The position numbers and the translations under genes are program-made. Below, one piece after another: positions 6,943 through 27,435 of a DNA stretch of 33,125 nt; position 1 is the stretch's first letter, and every line of letters starts with the position of its first letter. The notes beneath the pieces were generated by a model, which was given only the letters and a program-made list of their open reading frames with translations, had not been told where the DNA came from and ran no database searches. The DNA comes from Armatimonadota bacterium (GTDB lineage Bacteria > Bacteroidota > Ignavibacteria > OLB7), in NCBI GenBank assembly GCA_020850315.1, contig JADZEY010000123.1, positions 1 to 33,125 of the forward strand, in the 5' to 3' direction.

Positions 6943-6985
6943 GATGTGAGGATAAAGGAATGATTAAAAGCCACAGCACTCTGTT

Positions 6986-7065
6986 GACGTGCGCCAACTG
7001 ACGTGCGCCAACTGACGTGCGCCAACTGACGTGCACCAACTGACGTGCACCAACTGACGTGCGCC
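6986..7065. repeat. 14-bp tandem repeat array upstream of pstS
   Basis: The unit GACGTGCGCCAACT occurs five full times (starts 6986, 7000, 7014, 7028, 7042) plus ten bases of a sixth copy from 7056. Units 1-3 are identical; units 4 and 5 carry one G-to-A change (GTGCACC). No spacers separate the copies. The array ends ~120 bases before the pstS start. Confidence 0.95.
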
Positions 7066-9498: not shown

Positions 9499-11019
9499 TC
9501 AGCCCCACCCTCCCACAAAGGAATCATACCAGGGCTGTAGCCAAAGCCACACATAATTGGAGATTGGGGGAACCGCGCTAAGAATGTTGGATAGAAGCAG
9601 CAAAACAGCAACCGCAACACGCCAGCGGGGAATAGCTGTCGGTTCCAGCTGCAAATATGGCGTGTTTGAAGAAGGCGAGTGCCAATAACCATCCAGCAAA
9701 AACCGCCCCCCAACAACCCACATTGCAACCACAGCAATCGCTCCCATTGCCGATATCCAATAGTACCCCCCTGATGCCAACTCCATCAGCAGCAGAAGGT
9801 GGTTCATGAACAGTATCCCCCACGGTAATCCGGCAAGAAGTGCCACCCCAGCAAGAACCAGATGCCCCTCAATCTTTCTTCTTTGTCCAGCCCCTTTCAG
9901 CAGAGCAATCGTCAGGGGGGGGCCATTTGGGATTCTATTGTTCCTATTCGGGGGGAGCATCACCAGCAAGGCAAGCGTTGCGGTGGCCACCCCAAACAGC
10001 ATCTCCAGAATATAATGCTGGCCCTCACCACTACTCGTTAGAATGGGAAGGAAGATGAAGGCAATGGCGACCGTGATAAGGTGCGCCAGCATAGCATACA
10101 ACCGCTGTTCACGAAGCATTGCTGCAACGGCAAGAAGCATCACCATCACCGTTAGCCCGCCAACAAACGGCTGCCAACGTAGATCGGGCAACTGCGCCGG
10201 CCAAGCTCTGCCAAGCAGTTGCATCACCCCAACCACAACTCCTACTGGGGCCAGCAGAAGTAAGAACATCCGTGCCGAACGTGAGGCGGAATCGGGAAGG
10301 TGAGGGACCGAAGTGAACGAAGGGAACAGCCCGCCACGCACAGCAACCCCCACCAGTAGCAGAAGGCTTCCGGCAACAAACGGCAGCACCGGAATCGGCG
10401 CGCTGTTTTGCGCAGTGGTGACATTGTTGATGGTGGCGTAGTTGGTTGCGTTGGTGAAGGAAACAATGAAGCCAATGCCCAACAACATTGCCGGAGTCCC
10501 CGCCGCGCTCCATATCATACCCCAACGGCTGCGCCCCCCCTCTACCTGAAGCATCTTCCATGTAGAAATCCCAACCAACTCAAGCCCTGCGAACAGGGTC
10601 AGCAAATCGTCGGCACCAACCACTATCCACAACCCCAACAAGCCGCTGCACTGAAAGATGGAGGAAGGGGAACACTGCCCGTTTCCGGTAAGCCAGCGCG
10701 AAAGCTCGGCACCGAACAACGGGATCAGAAGGGTGAGTTTTGCCGCCACCACAAACCGATCAATCACCACCATGCCGTAGCCAAGCGGCTGGTTGGGCCC
10801 TTGGAACAGCCACTCGGCCTTGAAGGCGTTATCGGTAAGCGGAAGCTGGACAAACAGCACCAGCATTCCAGCAACCAGATAGCCCACCGATAGCACCGCC
10901 GGAAGCCTTGCCAGGAAGGCTTCGCGGCGTGCAGCAATCGCCCCGGCCACAACCGTTGCAATCAGCAGAAACTCCGGCAAAAAACCGTAGAGACTGAAGA
11001 GCAATTGGGAGGGCATCAT
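9499..11019 (-). CDS. Divergent NuoN-like (complex I antiporter-type) membrane subunit
   Basis: This 506-residue protein has about fourteen hydrophobic segments. It keeps landmarks of complex I antiporter-type subunits: the helix-5 block LLTLFAGLELVGIS with Glu147, a loop with VAVRGGLFPSFTSVPHLPDSA (residues ~225-245) resembling the helix-7/8 segment of NuoN, and LAGLPWGILF (~395-404) resembling the LAGIP segment of helix 12. By eye against NuoN, the Lys of helix 7 is Arg228, the Lys of helix 8 is lost (Pro258 region), and the Lys of helix 12 is His407. Only the helix-5 Glu is clearly kept, so pumping ability is doubtful. It is the last gene of the cluster with NuoJ- and NuoK-like genes. The start (double ATG at 11019/11016) lacks a clear ribosome site; a GTG at 11109 is an alternative that would run through a repeat. 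Confidence 0.65.
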   Translation of the reverse strand: MMPSQLLFSLYGFLPEFLLIATVVAGAIAARREAFLARLPAVLSVGYLVAGMLVLFVQLPLTDNAFKAEWLFQGPNQPLGYGMVVIDRFVVAAKLTLLIPLFGAELSRWLTGNGQCSPSSIFQCSGLLGLWIVVGADDLLTLFAGLELVGISTWKMLQVEGGRSRWGMIWSAAGTPAMLLGIGFIVSFTNATNYATINNVTTAQNSAPIPVLPFVAGSLLLLVGVAVRGGLFPSFTSVPHLPDSASRSARMFLLLLAPVGVVVGVMQLLGRAWPAQLPDLRWQPFVGGLTVMVMLLAVAAMLREQRLYAMLAHLITVAIAFIFLPILTSSGEGQHYILEMLFGVATATLALLVMLPPNRNNRIPNGPPLTIALLKGAGQRRKIEGHLVLAGVALLAGLPWGILFMNHLLLLMELASGGYYWISAMGAIAVVAMWVVGGRFLLDGYWHSPSSNTPYLQLEPTAIPRWRVAVAVLLLLSNILSAVPPISNYVWLWLQPWYDSFVGGWG

Positions 11020-11063
11020 CTGGGCGGGAAAGTCAGTGGTCGGTTGTGGGTTGAGCCGAATTG

Positions 11064-11097
11064 CAGTGCTTCGTCGAAGCCACCTCTCGCAATGATG
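11064..11097. repeat. Dispersed palindromic repeat, copy 1
   Basis: Read on the minus strand, this element (TCATTGCGAGAGGTGGCTTCGACGAAGCACTG, in two blocks) matches the element at 22710-22742, sharing CATTGCGAGA and CTTCGACGAAGCA. Similar REP-like units are known between genes in many bacteria. It lies in the spacer before the NuoN-like gene. Confidence 0.6.
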
Positions 11098-11139
11098 GAG
11101 GGAGTACACTCCCCCGCTTATGCTATGCCTGCCGAAACA

Positions 11140-11928
11140 TCACTTGCTTGATGCTGGGGTTTCTGGTTTTATCCGTTGCTGTTGCAGTTCGGTTGGTGTT
11201 GTTCCTTGCTGGCCAGCAACGTTCATCGGCTGGGCGTACAGAACAAAAACGCGGGGATATGCCTTGACAATATCCATCGGTTCCTCCCCTTTGAACGGAG
11301 CCAGCGACTTCCCTTTCACCTGCAAGCAATGGAACACCAGCGGAGTTTTTTTGCCAACCATAAATGGTGCAACGTTCACCGCATAGCTTACCCCAGGCCC
11401 CCAACGGGTGGTGTCAATAGTGAACGGAGCGGGGCGCAGCAATTCGTCGGTTCCAAAACGGAAGATGAAATGGGTGGGATGATTAGTCTGGGCATAAACA
11501 CGGATCAGCTTCGGTTTTGGGCCAGCGATTTTATCCATGTACGGAAGTGTATTGGTTCCTTCGGGAAGCTGCTGCTGCAACACGTTCAGCCAGTTGTAGG
11601 TTCCTTTCAGCGCGCCACTCTCCCACTCCTCCACCACATAATTGATCTGGAACACCTGCCCGGCAGCCCCACTGATTGGGAACTTGTACGTCTCAATCCC
11701 CAACGCGCTGAAGGCGTTGCGGATGTCGGTCAAATCCATCTGCTGCACAGCTTTTGTGGCGGCTGGTGTTGTTGGTTTCACTGCTTTCATTTCTTTCCCG
11801 GCTTTGGGCGTAACAGGCTTTAGTGCAGTGGTTTTTGGTGCGGGCGCGGCTCCGCGTGGTTGCTGGGCTACCAGCGTGCTACTGCCGATAAGCAGCGTTA
11901 GAGCCAGGGTCAGAACGGACGTTCTCAT
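11140..11928 (-). CDS. Secreted protein of unknown function within the complex-I-like cluster
   Basis: The 262-residue protein has a clear signal peptide (MRTSVLTLALTLLIGSSTLVAQ), then a Pro/Lys/Thr-rich linker (~25-65). A soluble domain follows (~70-245), with LTDIRNAFSALGIETYKFPI, YVVEEWESGALKGTYNWLNV and TNHPTHFIFRFGTDE. I do not recognise the family. The start at 11928 is set by the signal peptide; the frame runs further upstream without sense. It sits 85 bases after the NuoK-like stop and 120 bases before the NuoN-like start on the same strand, so it may be co-expressed and could be a periplasmic partner of the membrane module. That link rests on position only. Confidence 0.75.
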   Translation of the reverse strand: MRTSVLTLALTLLIGSSTLVAQQPRGAAPAPKTTALKPVTPKAGKEMKAVKPTTPAATKAVQQMDLTDIRNAFSALGIETYKFPISGAAGQVFQINYVVEEWESGALKGTYNWLNVLQQQLPEGTNTLPYMDKIAGPKPKLIRVYAQTNHPTHFIFRFGTDELLRPAPFTIDTTRWGPGVSYAVNVAPFMVGKKTPLVFHCLQVKGKSLAPFKGEEPMDIVKAYPRVFVLYAQPMNVAGQQGTTPTELQQQRIKPETPASSK

Positions 11929-12013
11929 GTTAGCGTTTGATTGATTTGGTTGGAATGTGACAAGGGGAATGGGGAGAATTTGGCAAGTACAGTCAGAGGT
12001 TCTATCAAAAATT

Positions 12014-12292
12014 TTATCCGCTGGTTTTCGAACAGTGACGCGGGGGAGCGCGATGCGCAACAGCTTGCCGGAACAGCCTGATCCCCACCACAAGCAGAAT
12101 CCCCAACGGCAACCCGAACCAAGCGATAGAAGGAATCCGGCTGGCGCACAGATAGAGCAGTAGCCCCACCGCACCAACCACCATCAGCGTTTGCCCAAGC
12201 AGCACTTGGTGCGTGTTGCGCCGCATGATTGCACAACAACCGCCAACAATCACCAAGCTGAGCGAAAGCAAGACAACTGGCGAGGCGTTCAT
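12014..12292 (-). CDS. Divergent NuoK-like small membrane protein
   Basis: The 92-residue protein has three hydrophobic segments, the size and topology of NuoK. Its helix-1/2 region reads IVGGCCAIMRRNTHQVLLGQTLM, here split around RRN (24-26), closely matching the NuoK pattern G-L-x-x-R-R-N-x-x-x-x-L-x-G-x-E-x-M. The conserved Glu of that pattern (Glu36 in E. coli) is Thr35 here, and the helix-3 Glu (Glu72) appears replaced by Pro62. In complex I these carboxylates lie on the proton path. Its ATG overlaps the stop of the NuoJ-like gene (ATGA), the coupling usual for nuoJ-nuoK. The assignment rests on the RRN block, size and gene order; alternative reading: an unrelated three-helix protein. 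Confidence 0.6.
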   Translation of the reverse strand: MNASPVVLLSLSLVIVGGCCAIMRRNTHQVLLGQTLMVVGAVGLLLYLCASRIPSIAWFGLPLGILLVVGIRLFRQAVAHRAPPRHCSKTSG

Positions 12293-12843
12293 GGCAGTGT
12301 GTGGGGGATTGGTTGGTGATCGGCATAATCGGCAGATGCTGTCCCTTGCTGCGTGGGGATCGTGATCTTGCAGACCACAACGGCAACAGCCGCAACAACC
12401 CACAGCAATAGCATATCGGCATCGAACAGACGCAAGGGGGTGGGGAATGTTCCTTGCTCTGTTGCGGCTGGCAGGTTGGGCTGCTGAACAATTCCACCAG
12501 CACCATCCAAGTTGCCAACAACAGCCAGCAACGCCCCGCCAACAACTCCGCAAAAAAGCCCGCCAGCAAGAACCTTGCCCCAAGAGAATGCAGCGTTGGA
12601 GAGAGCTTCAGGATTGTGGTGCGTACGCCATTGCGTGCCAGCAATCACAACAGCAACCACGGGGAACATCATCACCAACCCAGTAAGCGGCGTGGCCGTA
12701 TCCAACAACAGCAGTGCGGCAAGCCCCGCGCCCGCAACCAGTGCAGCAATGGACGCGCCGCGCCCCCGATAGCCAACAGCAACAAGCAGTGCCGGAGCAA
12801 TCGTCAGCGTAGCAATGCCCCAGGATAAAGCCTCGTTTCCCAT
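12289..12843 (-). CDS. Divergent NuoJ-like membrane protein
   Basis: This 184-residue protein has five hydrophobic segments: residues ~7-23, 29-48, 52-68, 88-110 and a last one (~145-163, LFDADMLLLWVVAAVAVVV). The layout of three close helices, a fourth, a loop, then a fifth preceded by LF matches NuoJ, whose last helix is preceded by a similar LF-x-x-Y/D segment. Sequence identity is low and I would not name it without its neighbour: the NuoK-like gene overlaps its stop by four bases, as nuoJ and nuoK often do. A run of eight AG repeats lies just upstream of the start. The hydrophilic tail (TQQGTASADYADHQP) is unremarkable. Confidence 0.5.
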   Translation of the reverse strand: MGNEALSWGIATLTIAPALLVAVGYRGRGASIAALVAGAGLAALLLLDTATPLTGLVMMFPVVAVVIAGTQWRTHHNPEALSNAAFSWGKVLAGGLFCGVVGGALLAVVGNLDGAGGIVQQPNLPAATEQGTFPTPLRLFDADMLLLWVVAAVAVVVCKITIPTQQGTASADYADHQPIPHTLP

Positions 12844-12855
12844 GAGATGCTGTGC

Positions 12856-12871
12856 AGAGAGAGAGAGAGAG
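12856..12871. repeat. (AG)8 dinucleotide repeat before the NuoJ-like start
   Basis: Sixteen bases of uninterrupted AG on the plus strand (CT on the coding strand) lie 13-28 bases upstream of the NuoJ-like ATG at 12843, where the ribosome site or promoter spacing would be affected. Length changes by slippage are plausible. Confidence 0.9.
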
Positions 12872-12884
12872 GCGTTCCGTTGCC

Positions 12885-13103
12885 TTACAACCTGGCCAAC
12901 CGCTCCTTGAAGTGGCGATACGCAAAGAAGAGCGCGACCGTGGCCACAAGCTCAATCAACCCGGCAATCAAGAACCACACTCTATCAAAGTCATCCGATG
13001 GAGCCGTAAGCAGATACAGCACGATGAACACAATGGCTGCCACCAGATTGAAAACAGCCATAATCAGGAAACCGGAAGCTGCGTTGGTTGGTTTTGAGGT
13101 CAT
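12885..13103 (-). CDS. Small two-helix membrane protein
   Basis: This 72-residue protein has two hydrophobic helices (~residues 13-33, FLIMAVFNLVAAIVFIVLYL, and ~44-62, WFLIAGLIELVATVALFFAY), joined by a short acidic loop SDDFD and ending in a basic tail HFKERLARL. I do not recognise a family. It lies 41 bases upstream of the NuoJ-like gene on the same strand, with a possible -7 box (TATCTTCG) 80 bases before its start, so it is probably the first gene of the cluster. The start at 13103 is the only sensible ATG before the first helix. Confidence 0.65.
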   Translation of the reverse strand: MTSKPTNAASGFLIMAVFNLVAAIVFIVLYLLTAPSDDFDRVWFLIAGLIELVATVALFFAYRHFKERLARL

Positions 13104-13314: not shown

Positions 13315-15189
13315 TTAGCCTTGATTCTCCTCGCTTACCACCGCATCATCGGCTTCCGGTGCTGCGGCTTCTGCAGGTGATTCATCTGGCATTTCCGGTG
13401 CCGGAGCTTCCGAAACCGAGGCGGCCACGGCAGCCGCTTCATCGGCGCTCATCCCAGCTGGCTCCGATTGTGGAACCGGATGCTGGCGATAGTAATCGGC
13501 TTGCTGTTCTTGGCTACGGTTTTTCAGAGCCTCCACTGCCGAAAGGGTGATCCGCTTCGACTCTTTATCGAATTCAATGACCTTCAGCGGAAGCTGGTCG
13601 CCAACGCGGAAGAATTGGGCGATATTTTTCACCGGTGCCGAAGCAAGCTGGGAGGTTGGAATAAAGCCGTCCACCCCTTGTGGAAGCTCGATCACCACCC
13701 CTTTGTCAATAATCCGGACAATCGTTCCTTCGGTTTCGCTGCCAACGGAGTAGTCGCCAGCGAACTCATCCCACGGGTTCATGTTCAACTGCTTGTGGCC
13801 CAAGCTGATGCGGCGTTGGTCTGGTTCCACACCAAGCACAATCACATCAAGCTCCTGCCCTTTCTTCAACACTTCCCCTGGGTGGCGAAGTTTTTTGGTC
13901 CAGCTTAGGTCGCTGATATGCACAAGGCCATCCACCCCCGGCTCAAGCTCCACAAACACACCAAAATTGGCAAGATTTCGCACCGCCCCTTTGTGGATGG
14001 AGCCGATTGGATATTTCTGCATCAGCTCGCTCCAAGGATCCGGCTCAAGCTGCTTCATTCCTAACGAAATTTTCTTTTCGTCTTTGTCAATGTTCAGCAC
14101 TTGGACCTCCACATTTTGGCCCAACGAGACCACTTGTGATGGGTGCTTCACGTGCTGAGTCCAGGACATTTCGGAGATGTGGATCAAGCCCTCGATACCA
14201 CGCTCGATCTCGATAAATGCGCCGTAATCGGTAAGCGACACCACTTTGCCGGTGATTTTGCTGCCGACGGCGATCTTCTCATCAATTTGATCCCACGGGT
14301 GGGAGGTCAGTTGTTTCAGACCAAGCGAGATGCGGCGGCGTTCTTCGTCGAAATCCAGCACCACAACTTTGATCGTCTCATCCAACTTCACAACCTCGGA
14401 TGGATGGTTGACACGCCCCCATGAGAGGTCGGTGATGTGAACCAAGCCATCCACGCCGCCAAGATCCACAAACACACCGAAGTCGGTGATTGCCTTAACG
14501 ACACCTTCCAGCACCAAGCCTTTTTCCAATTTGGCAAGGATTTCCTGGCGTTGGCCGGCAAGGTTTTCCTCCAGAAGAACTTTGTGCGAGACCACAACGT
14601 TTTCGTTCGGGTGGTTGACTTTCACCACGCGCACGTCAAGTTCGCGGCCCAGCAGTGCGTCGAAATCGCGCACGGGACGCACATCTACTTGCGAACCAGG
14701 AAGGAAGGCATCAAGCCCCAGAAGGTCAACAACCAACCCACCTTTGATGCGGCGGCTGACCTTGGCTTTCAAGATGTCTTGATTTTCGTACGACTTCATG
14801 ATCCGATCCCAGATTCGCATGAAGTCGGCACGTTTGCGGCTCAGCAGAAGTTTGCCGTCGGTATCCTCCACTTTTTCAAGATAGACCTCAACCTCATCGC
14901 CAGCTTTCAGCCCTTCGATGTTTGCGAACTCACTCCGTGGCACAATGCCTTCCGACTTAAAGCCGATATCAATCGAGACTTCGTCATCGTTCACCAGCAC
15001 CACGCGGCCTGTGATGATCTCATGTTCGGTAAGATCGCCGAGTGTGCCTTCGTACATCTTCATCATGTCGCTGTACTCAGTAGCCGAGTAATCGCTGTGG
15101 CGACGGAAGCGTGCCTCGTTCCGCTTTGCATTGAAGCTTTGGCGCAAGGTCTTTTTTGGGTCCTTCCCGTTTTGTGTGGATTCAGCCAT
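13315..15189 (-). CDS. rpsA: 30S ribosomal protein S1
   Basis: The 624-residue protein has six S1 RNA-binding domains at roughly residues 55-120, 137-205, 222-292, 307-377, 394-464 and 480-550. The central ones carry the typical [41 protein letters not shown] and [21 protein letters not shown] cores, each followed by a RRISLG or KKISLG strand. It binds mRNA at the 30S subunit during initiation. The first two domains are more divergent, as is usual because they bind the ribosome. The C-terminal ~65 residues are an acidic Ala/Pro/Glu-rich tail. The start at 15189 follows GGAAGG; the frame is open to 15678 but that is leader. A ~350-nt leader with a good promoter precedes it, leaving room for the autoregulation known for S1. 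Confidence 0.95.
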
Positions 15190-15540
15190 GATTGTGCCTT
15201 CCATGTGGTACATACCCCTGAAACTTCCATTCCATGGCGTAGCATGGGCTTCTGGAAGCGTCGCATTCACGGTTCGCTTGCAGGTGGCTCCGCTGCCGGG
15301 CTGCCGGTTGGTTGAATTGCCATGAGACGGATGGCGATCCTGCGGCGGCGGAATCTGCTGCGTTCGCTTGGTGCGAGTCCCCGGTTCGCCAATGCGTGCG
15401 TCCCAGCACGAACATTGACGAGAGGCGGGTAACGAAAATGAGTAACGTTGATGTTGGATTGTTATAATCCGGCAGCCAGTGCCGCTGTGGTTGAAACGCC
15501 CGCGACACCTACCTTCCAGCACCCTTTGGTGCAAGAAAAA
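15190..15540 (-). other. Long rpsA leader
   Basis: Between the predicted rpsA promoter and start codon lie ~350 transcribed bases with no separate gene I can support. A short hairpin (GCACC-4-GGTGC, 15519-15532) lies near its 5' end. Long structured leaders are used in other bacteria for S1 autoregulation, but I cannot show a specific fold. Confidence 0.45.
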
Positions 15541-15546
15541 AGCCTG

Positions 15547-15578
15547 CAAAGATAGGCCATTGGCGGTGCGGTTTGCAA
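15547..15578 (-). promoter_or_regulatory. Bacteroidota-type promoter of rpsA
   Basis: On the minus strand TATCTTTG (15554-15547) is preceded, 21 bases upstream, by TTG (15578-15576). This is the same -7 octamer as before tRNA-Glu. Transcription would start near 15540. Confidence 0.55.
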
Positions 15579-15676
15579 CCCCGTTGGCGGGGGAATGCCT
15601 GCAAAGCTGGGCTGGCGAACGCACTTTTACGTTTTCTTCCCGCAAACGCTGGTTCATCTTCAGCGATCTTGCCTTC

Positions 15677-16447
15677 ATGCTACATCAGCGCATTATTCTG
15701 ACCGGGGCCAGCAGTGGGATTGGGGCAATTATGGCAAGGGAGTACGGAAAACAGGGGTGCAAACTGCTATTAGTGGCGCGGCGCAGGGGGGCGCTGGAGT
15801 CCACAGCTGCAGACGTTGTTCGGGCCGGCGGCCAAGCTCAAATTCTTGTGGCCGACGTTGCAGCCCCAGAAACCGCCACCGCTGCGGTGAAACTATCAAT
15901 GGAAACATGGGGCGGGATTGATCTGGTGATTGCAAACGCAGGGGTCAGCAACCCGCAATGGTTCGACTCCTTCGATGCAGCCGATGCCGAGCGGACAATG
16001 CAGGTGAATTGGTTCAGCGTTGCAAGGATGCTGGAAGCGGTGATCCCGGTATTCCGACAACAGGGGGAAGGAACGTTTGTTGCCGTTAGCTCGCTGGCCG
16101 GGTATCGTGGGATGCCTGGTTCGGGGCCCTACAATGCCAGCAAAGCCGCCGTCACCACGCTGATGCAAAGCCTACGGACTGAAGTTGTGGGAACATCCAT
16201 CAAGTTGCTGACCATCAGCCCAGGTTTTATCCGAACTCCAATGACCGACAAAAATGAGTTCTATATGCCGTTTTTGATGGAACCGGAGCGTGGGGCACAG
16301 CGAATCATCCAAGCAATCGCAAAAGGGAAATCGGAGTATCGCTTCCCTACGCGGCTCAGCATCGGGGTACGGCTGTTGCAGTGGATGCCGAATTGGCTGT
16401 TCGACCGATTGATGAAACGACTGCGCCCACAGAAACCACAGCACTAA
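15677..16447 (+). CDS. Short-chain dehydrogenase/reductase (SDR), classical type
   Basis: The 256-residue protein has the SDR Rossmann signature TGASSGIG (residues 9-16), the NAG motif (IANAGVS) and the catalytic Ser-Tyr-Lys set in SSLAGYRG and YNASKAA. The length fits classical SDRs. Basic residues ARRR after the second strand suggest NADP(H). The C-terminus carries a hydrophobic/basic segment ([19 protein letters not shown]), as in membrane-associated family members related to acyl or steroid metabolism. The substrate is not predictable. The ATG at 15677 places the glycine motif at the usual position, though no ribosome site is evident. It is divergent from rpsA. Confidence 0.88.
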
Positions 16448-27215: not shown

Positions 27216-27400
27216 TTCGCGCCCTCCTTGATCGTGCTGCAAGCAGCAGATCGTTCCTCCCAAGTTTGGGAGGAAATTGGAGTGGGGCTTTCGTTCTCCA
27301 TTCTCAATTCTCAATTCTCCATTCCTTCGCGCCCTCCTTGACCGTGCTGCAAGCAGCAGATCGTTCCTCCCAAGTTTGGGAGGAAGTTGGAGTGGGGCTT
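27216..27400. repeat. Two 75-bp direct repeats with internal hairpins and pyrimidine-rich tails
   Basis: Copies at 27216-27290 and 27326-27400 differ at two positions only. Each contains the dyad CCTCCCAAGTTTGGGAGG (8-bp arms) and GCTGCAAGCAGC. Each is followed by short tandem C/T/A-rich units: after copy 1, variants of CTCAATTCTC; after copy 2, CACTATTCACCATT. This fills the gap between the convergent genes ending at 27173 and 27436. It looks like an interspersed repeat family rather than a coding region. Confidence 0.9.
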
Positions 27401-27435
27401 CCATTCACTATTCACCATTCACTATTCACCATTCC

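Follow-up and report, generated by a model that had tools for sequence, protein, structure and literature searches.

Genes of the locus

We analyzed a 33,125-nucleotide stretch of genomic DNA deposited as Armatimonadota bacterium (assembly GCA_020850315.1, contig JADZEY010000123.1, positions 1 to 33,125; hereafter the window), in which positions 9499-13103 carry five open reading frames on the minus strand. Three of these frames encode membrane proteins that resemble the complex I subunits NuoJ, NuoK and NuoN, hereafter J, K and N; a two-helix protein (T) lies ahead of J, and a secreted protein (X) is inserted between K and N (Table 1). A first-pass annotation had described this arrangement from the letters of the window, and its layout was reproduced: the five frames are open at the place and on the strand given, J and K overlap by four bases (ATGA), the RRN block is present in K, and the GLELVG and LAGLP segments are present in N. 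An upstream GTG at 11109 is a possible alternative start for N. Scans for promoters and terminators found no more candidates than in shuffled sequence. The cluster is real; the same locus is present in a second metagenome-assembled genome (MAG) of the genus (Chlorobiota MAG JAEUSP010000045.1), which rules out an assembly artefact as its source. We refer to the genome holding the window as G000, to this congener as G001, and to three relatives from the same GTDB family as G002, G003 and G004.

Table 1 Genes of the J-K-N cluster and the flanking marker (window positions; aa, amino acids)
Feature	Position	Strand	Evidence
rpsA (ribosomal protein S1), flanking marker, start uncertain	13315..15678	-	73-75% identity to relatives' S1
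T, two-helix membrane protein, 72 aa, leads the group	12885..13103	-	32-40% identical homologs in the G002 and G004 clusters
J, putative NuoJ-derived membrane protein, 184 aa, five predicted helices	12289..12843	-	position T-J-K as in G002
K, putative NuoK-derived membrane protein, 92 aa, three predicted helices	12014..12292	-	sub-threshold Oxidored_q2, RRN block in register
X, secreted protein, 262 aa, between K and N	11140..11928	-	no Pfam/NCBIfam match
N, NuoN-derived membrane protein, 506 aa, ATG at 11019	9499..11019	-	TIGR01770 E 8.7e-15

Identity of N, J and K

The relation of N to NuoN was supported by profile searches. The match to TIGR01770 (NCBIfam NuoN family) scored 54.7 bits, far below the curated cut-off of 332.6, and the NuoN equivalog NF004442 was also matched (E 2.3e-9); the best-matching models were NuoN models, not Mrp models, and no Pfam model matched. 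N could be aligned with the NuoN of a reduced cluster in G002 (27% identity over 292 aa, E 4e-21), with which it has the block AEWLFxGxNQPxGxGMVVxD in common. Among 61 genomes of the class, a close N was found only in the congener G001 (75% identity), and the second-best matches were those of G002 and G004, both within nuo clusters. A phylum-wide search with the N profile recovered only three intact NuoN proteins, from another family. The profile built from two N sequences matched no solved structure, and a distant DNA search in plasmids gave no match.

The sole family signal of K was a sub-threshold Oxidored_q2 match (E 0.076) that spans the RRN block, and J matched no family in the profile search. 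The proposed likeness to NuoJ, NuoK and NuoN holds by profile for N, stays below threshold for K and finds no match for J. J is 77% identical to its G001 counterpart; compared with the G002 J, it showed weak sequence similarity (z of about 2.3-2.9 relative to block-shuffled sequences). The G002 J itself matched Oxidored_q3 (E 1.5e-7; 31.7 bits, just below the cut-off of 33.2), and the G002 K, L, M and N score above the respective Pfam cut-offs, so the J and K positions in the window can be identified through this relative. The assignment of window J and K rests on the conserved order T-J-K-...-N, on length and on helix number (five and three), and cannot be proved from the window sequence alone.

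The locus in related genomes

In G004 (contig C13) the gene order is rpsA-nuoA-B-C-T-D-H-I-J-K-L-M-N, without E, F and G, which makes this second cluster a complete complex I of the 11-subunit type, and its proton residues are intact. The second cluster of G002 (C28) lacks A, B, C, D, H and I and reads T-J-(insert)-K-L-M-N, followed by an epimerase gene and a PorV-like gene. G000 and its congener G001 have the order rpsA-T-J-K-X-N, so the gene order seen in the window recurs in a relative. G003 has T followed by the same epimerase and PorV-like genes, with no second nuo genes. On the 5' side, rpsA is found in G000, G001 and G004, directly upstream of the full second nuo cluster (G004) as well as of the reduced one (G001); the epimerase-PorV pair lies 3' of N in G002 and 3' of T in G003. 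Because T is recognizable in all of these genomes, they represent one locus in different states.

Two features of the G002 cluster were observed in addition. The insert between J and K (L012:9221-10348) encodes a secreted protein with CarboxypepD_reg and laminin-G-like domains (lectin-like), which differs from X in kind and place. The G002 NuoL (L012:11255-13735) contains about 100 residues before transmembrane helix (TM) 5 that have no counterpart, as if read out-of-frame, and the remainder is alignable.

All five genomes, G000 to G004, carry a normal complex I over several contigs, with one L, M, N, K, H and D each. In total, G000 to G003 have one NuoH and one NuoD each and G004 has two of each; the single NuoH and NuoD of G000 are those of the normal complex, encoded on contigs other than that of the window. 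The normal nuo genes of G000 (L010, L029) are distributed as J-K on C23, H on C51, D on C117 and L-M-N on C128; the scattering is alike in G001 to G004, and no single normal nuo operon was seen in the family. Neither the quinone module (B, C, D, I) nor NuoH is encoded at the window locus, where N is the only one of the antiporter-like subunits L, M and N. The absence of L and M from the cluster, already pointed out in the first-pass annotation, extends to the whole genome: searches of the G000, G001 and G003 genomes found no L or M beyond the normal ones.

Residues of the proton path

We aligned window N with five normal NuoN proteins and the G004 NuoN. The TM5 Glu is kept (E147), and the lysines of TM7, TM8 and TM12 are replaced by R228, P258 and H407, respectively, as had been proposed by eye; in G001, the TM12 Lys is replaced by Arg402. 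The TM6 EAxxKY segment is deleted and the TM7b PFHxWxPD segment is lost. In K, alignment with family members bore out the replacement of Glu36 by T35, whereas the suggested equivalence of Glu72 to Pro62 is probably wrong, since Glu72 aligns with R75; no Asp or Glu occurs anywhere in K. In window J the NuoJ TM3 motif YAGAIMVLVVFVIML, which is located at the coupling site, is lost.

The importance of the key residues has been reported for E. coli (PMC13073174, PMC9271201, PMC8357420). The E. coli NuoN variants K247A and K395A have about 6-35% of the activity left, depending on the assay, and E133A and K217R are mild, K217R retaining most proton pumping (PMC13073174). The positions of K247 and K395 are both replaced in window N.

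Across window K and N, 1/6 conserved proton-path Lys/Glu residues is kept (E147), compared with 41/153 other invariant columns of the two proteins (p 0.5), and a preferential loss of proton residues in the window is therefore not supported. Such a preference holds weakly for G002, in which 4/13 key residues are kept versus 336/553 (61%) other invariant columns (Fisher p 0.03). The G002 replacements comprise E to Q at both NuoK glutamates; E to Q, K to R and K to G in L; K to R, K to N and E to Q in M; and only the TM12 K to R in N.

Selection and phylogeny

The ratio of nonsynonymous to synonymous substitution rates (omega) between G000 and G001 was estimated by a pairwise codon model (GY94-type, own script). 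The values were 0.26 for N, 0.33 for K and 0.37 for J, compared with 0.07, 0.01 and 0.06 for the normal N, K and J (normal M, 0.07; normal L, 0.05); X, T and S1 gave 0.14, 0.09 and 0.07, respectively. For N, K, J, X, T and S1 alike, omega = 1 was rejected, with log-likelihood gains of 45.1 (N), 5.9 (K) and 9.3 (J). Under neutral simulation, N acquired on average 9.5 stops in each lineage, and the N frame is open in both congeners; K is short, and since 20% of its neutral runs stay open, open frames alone prove little in that case. A dead pseudogene cluster is ruled out by the open frames in both congeners and by omega values of 0.26-0.37, significantly below 1. Because both congeners share the reduced state, the constraint is one that is relaxed yet present after the reduction.

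In the NuoN tree, the four second-cluster NuoN proteins form one clade (support 99/100), inside which the window pair, on a very long branch, joins G002 (92/90). The canonical subunits place G002 and G004 as sisters (95/99), and the same sister relation in the NuoN tree was not rejected by the approximately unbiased (AU) test (p-AU 0.144). These trees would fit either a single reduction, with the gene tree being right, or a reduction that occurred twice.

T and X

T is the best conserved of the five proteins (94% identity between G000 and G001), and its homologs in the G002 and G004 clusters are 32-40% identical. In other genomes, T homologs also occur at sites without nuo genes, next to unrelated ones, which weakens the case for T as a complex I subunit; the two-helix protein said to lead the group does so, but given the wider family it need not be part of the module. 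T could be a partner of the assembly considered below. The T-like two-helix proteins of L061-L066 lie beside dapD-like, AmmeMemoRadiSam-B-like, murQ-like and epimerase genes (named by eye), and the T-like family consists of small membrane proteins without a clear Pfam entry, across other genomes of the class. X is restricted to the genus of the window among the 61 genomes, is 87% identical between G000 and G001, and showed no known domain in Pfam and NCBIfam searches.

Interpretation

We consider it probable that the cluster descends by reduction from a second complex I and is kept as a non-pumping J-K-N membrane scaffold. The ancestor of this Chlorobiota family would have possessed a second, 11-subunit complex I (without NuoE, F and G) beside rpsA. 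The quinone module (B, C, D, I), A and H would then have been lost, followed by the distal pumps L and M, so that J, K and N remained. These three are neighbours in the membrane arm of complex I and could therefore stay together; they may still form one membrane assembly, in which E147 and R228 of N (the TM5 Glu and TM7 Arg) would be kept as a structural ion pair. Because the quinone module is absent there would be no electron input, and because L, M, the TM8 and TM12 lysines and the NuoK glutamates are absent there is no known proton path, from which we infer that the J-K-N assembly would neither transfer electrons nor pump protons. Proton pumping by the window module is unlikely. Of the two possibilities raised in the first-pass annotation, a degenerate complex I copy is now supported by the stepwise states of this locus across relatives, with the window at the reduced end; a membrane module with another task is allowed by the purifying selection, and since the genes are kept intact, some other work at the membrane is probable.

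Several points weigh against the descent and scaffold role proposed here. AlphaFold2 models from two sequences were unusable for both N and J (predicted local distance difference test scores, 36.6 and 43.5, respectively), hhalign comparisons of the J and K pairs with the normal J and K were not significant, and neither was BLASTP of window J or K against G002. Since the key residues in the window were lost no faster than other invariant columns, general divergence explains them, not targeted loss. The retention of J-K-N is equally explained by a few deletions, the genes being adjacent in the operon. Finally, if G002 and G004 are sisters, as in the canonical genes, G002 and the window lineage were reduced independently.

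The J-K-N block, without redox module, distal pumps and proton path, may have become a new kind of non-pumping membrane assembly with T and perhaps X as partners, a similar core having been reached twice if G002 and G004 are sisters; we regard this as possible but doubtful. It is unlikely, in our estimate, that the function of the second complex I was lost altogether and that J, K and N are decaying with no present role, the constraint being residual or a matter of avoiding toxic misfolding. Decay would account for omega values 4 to 27 times those of the normal subunits, for the lost key residues, for the unrelated inserts that interrupt the cluster (X in the window, the lectin-like protein in G002) and for G003, which has T but no second cluster. 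It sits poorly with the reduced state shared by the congeners, in which omega has been well below 1 for each gene since their split, and with frames that are all open, whereas neutral evolution would be expected to leave about 9 stops in N in each lineage.

A role within the normal complex I, with J, K and N as alternative subunits (a conditional J-K-N swap) or as assembly factors, appears improbable: the proteins descend from the other complex I, their identity to the normal subunits is at most about 22%, and the TM3 motif of NuoJ is lost. In favour of such a role, the genome also encodes a normal complex I, and the three subunits adjoin in the membrane arm and, the missing A aside, match the mitochondrial ND2 assembly module of complex I. 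We give hardly any weight to the module as an ion carrier, such as an Mrp-like antiporter working via E147, R228 and H407 of N. N does retain the TM5 Glu, a basic TM7 residue and a His or Arg in TM12, and an arginine in TM7 is compatible with pumping in the E. coli K217R variant (PMC13073174); on the other side, the TM8 Lys is Pro, the EAxxKY and PFHxWxPD segments are gone, K is without an acidic residue, and genes for Mrp A, B, E, F and G are not apparent at the locus.

Comparison with known systems

The 11-subunit complex I is well known, for example from Desulfitobacterium hafniense (PMC11238625). The window cluster resembles it in the NuoN homology, in the order J-K-..-N and in its rpsA-side locus, which is that of the intact cluster of G004, and differs from it in lacking A, B, C, D, H, I, L and M, in the replacement of most proton-path residues and in the secreted insert. 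Several defining features were tested and found absent, and the cluster was accordingly rated a relic of complex I, not a functional member. The reduced cluster of G002 is like that of the window in having no quinone module and replaced key Glu/Lys residues, and unlike it in retaining L and M and in the site of its insert, between J and K. The N and K families have counterparts in the Mrp cation/proton antiporter (MrpD and MrpC, respectively), but no other Mrp subunit is apparent at the window locus and the antiporter residues are lost. J, K and N correspond to ND6, ND4L and ND2 of the ND2 assembly module (ND2, ND3, ND4L, ND6); that module is an assembly intermediate, whereas the window set, without NuoA/ND3, would be an end product.

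Complex I is thought to have been built from modules, and to our knowledge its stepwise dismantling, with the intermediates alive in related genomes, is rare. A limited literature search, without most subscription journals, turned up neither a J-K-N remnant nor a reduction series of this kind. Within a single family, the cluster occurs in full, as a membrane arm alone with Glu to Gln and Lys to Arg/Asn changes at the pump residues, and as a minimal J-K-N set, and in one genome it is lost. Should the minimal set be functional, the antiporter fold can be retained for a use other than ion transport. G002 also amounts to a natural experiment, showing which residues become free to change without a redox module.

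Other features of the window

Two tandem repeats were observed elsewhere in the window. A tandem array at 6985-7065, between two genes, has 5.8 copies of the 14-base unit TGACGTGCGCCAAC. At 27216-27435, a 110-base tandem repeat is present in two copies, 90% alike, and ends in ATTCAC-type short repeats.

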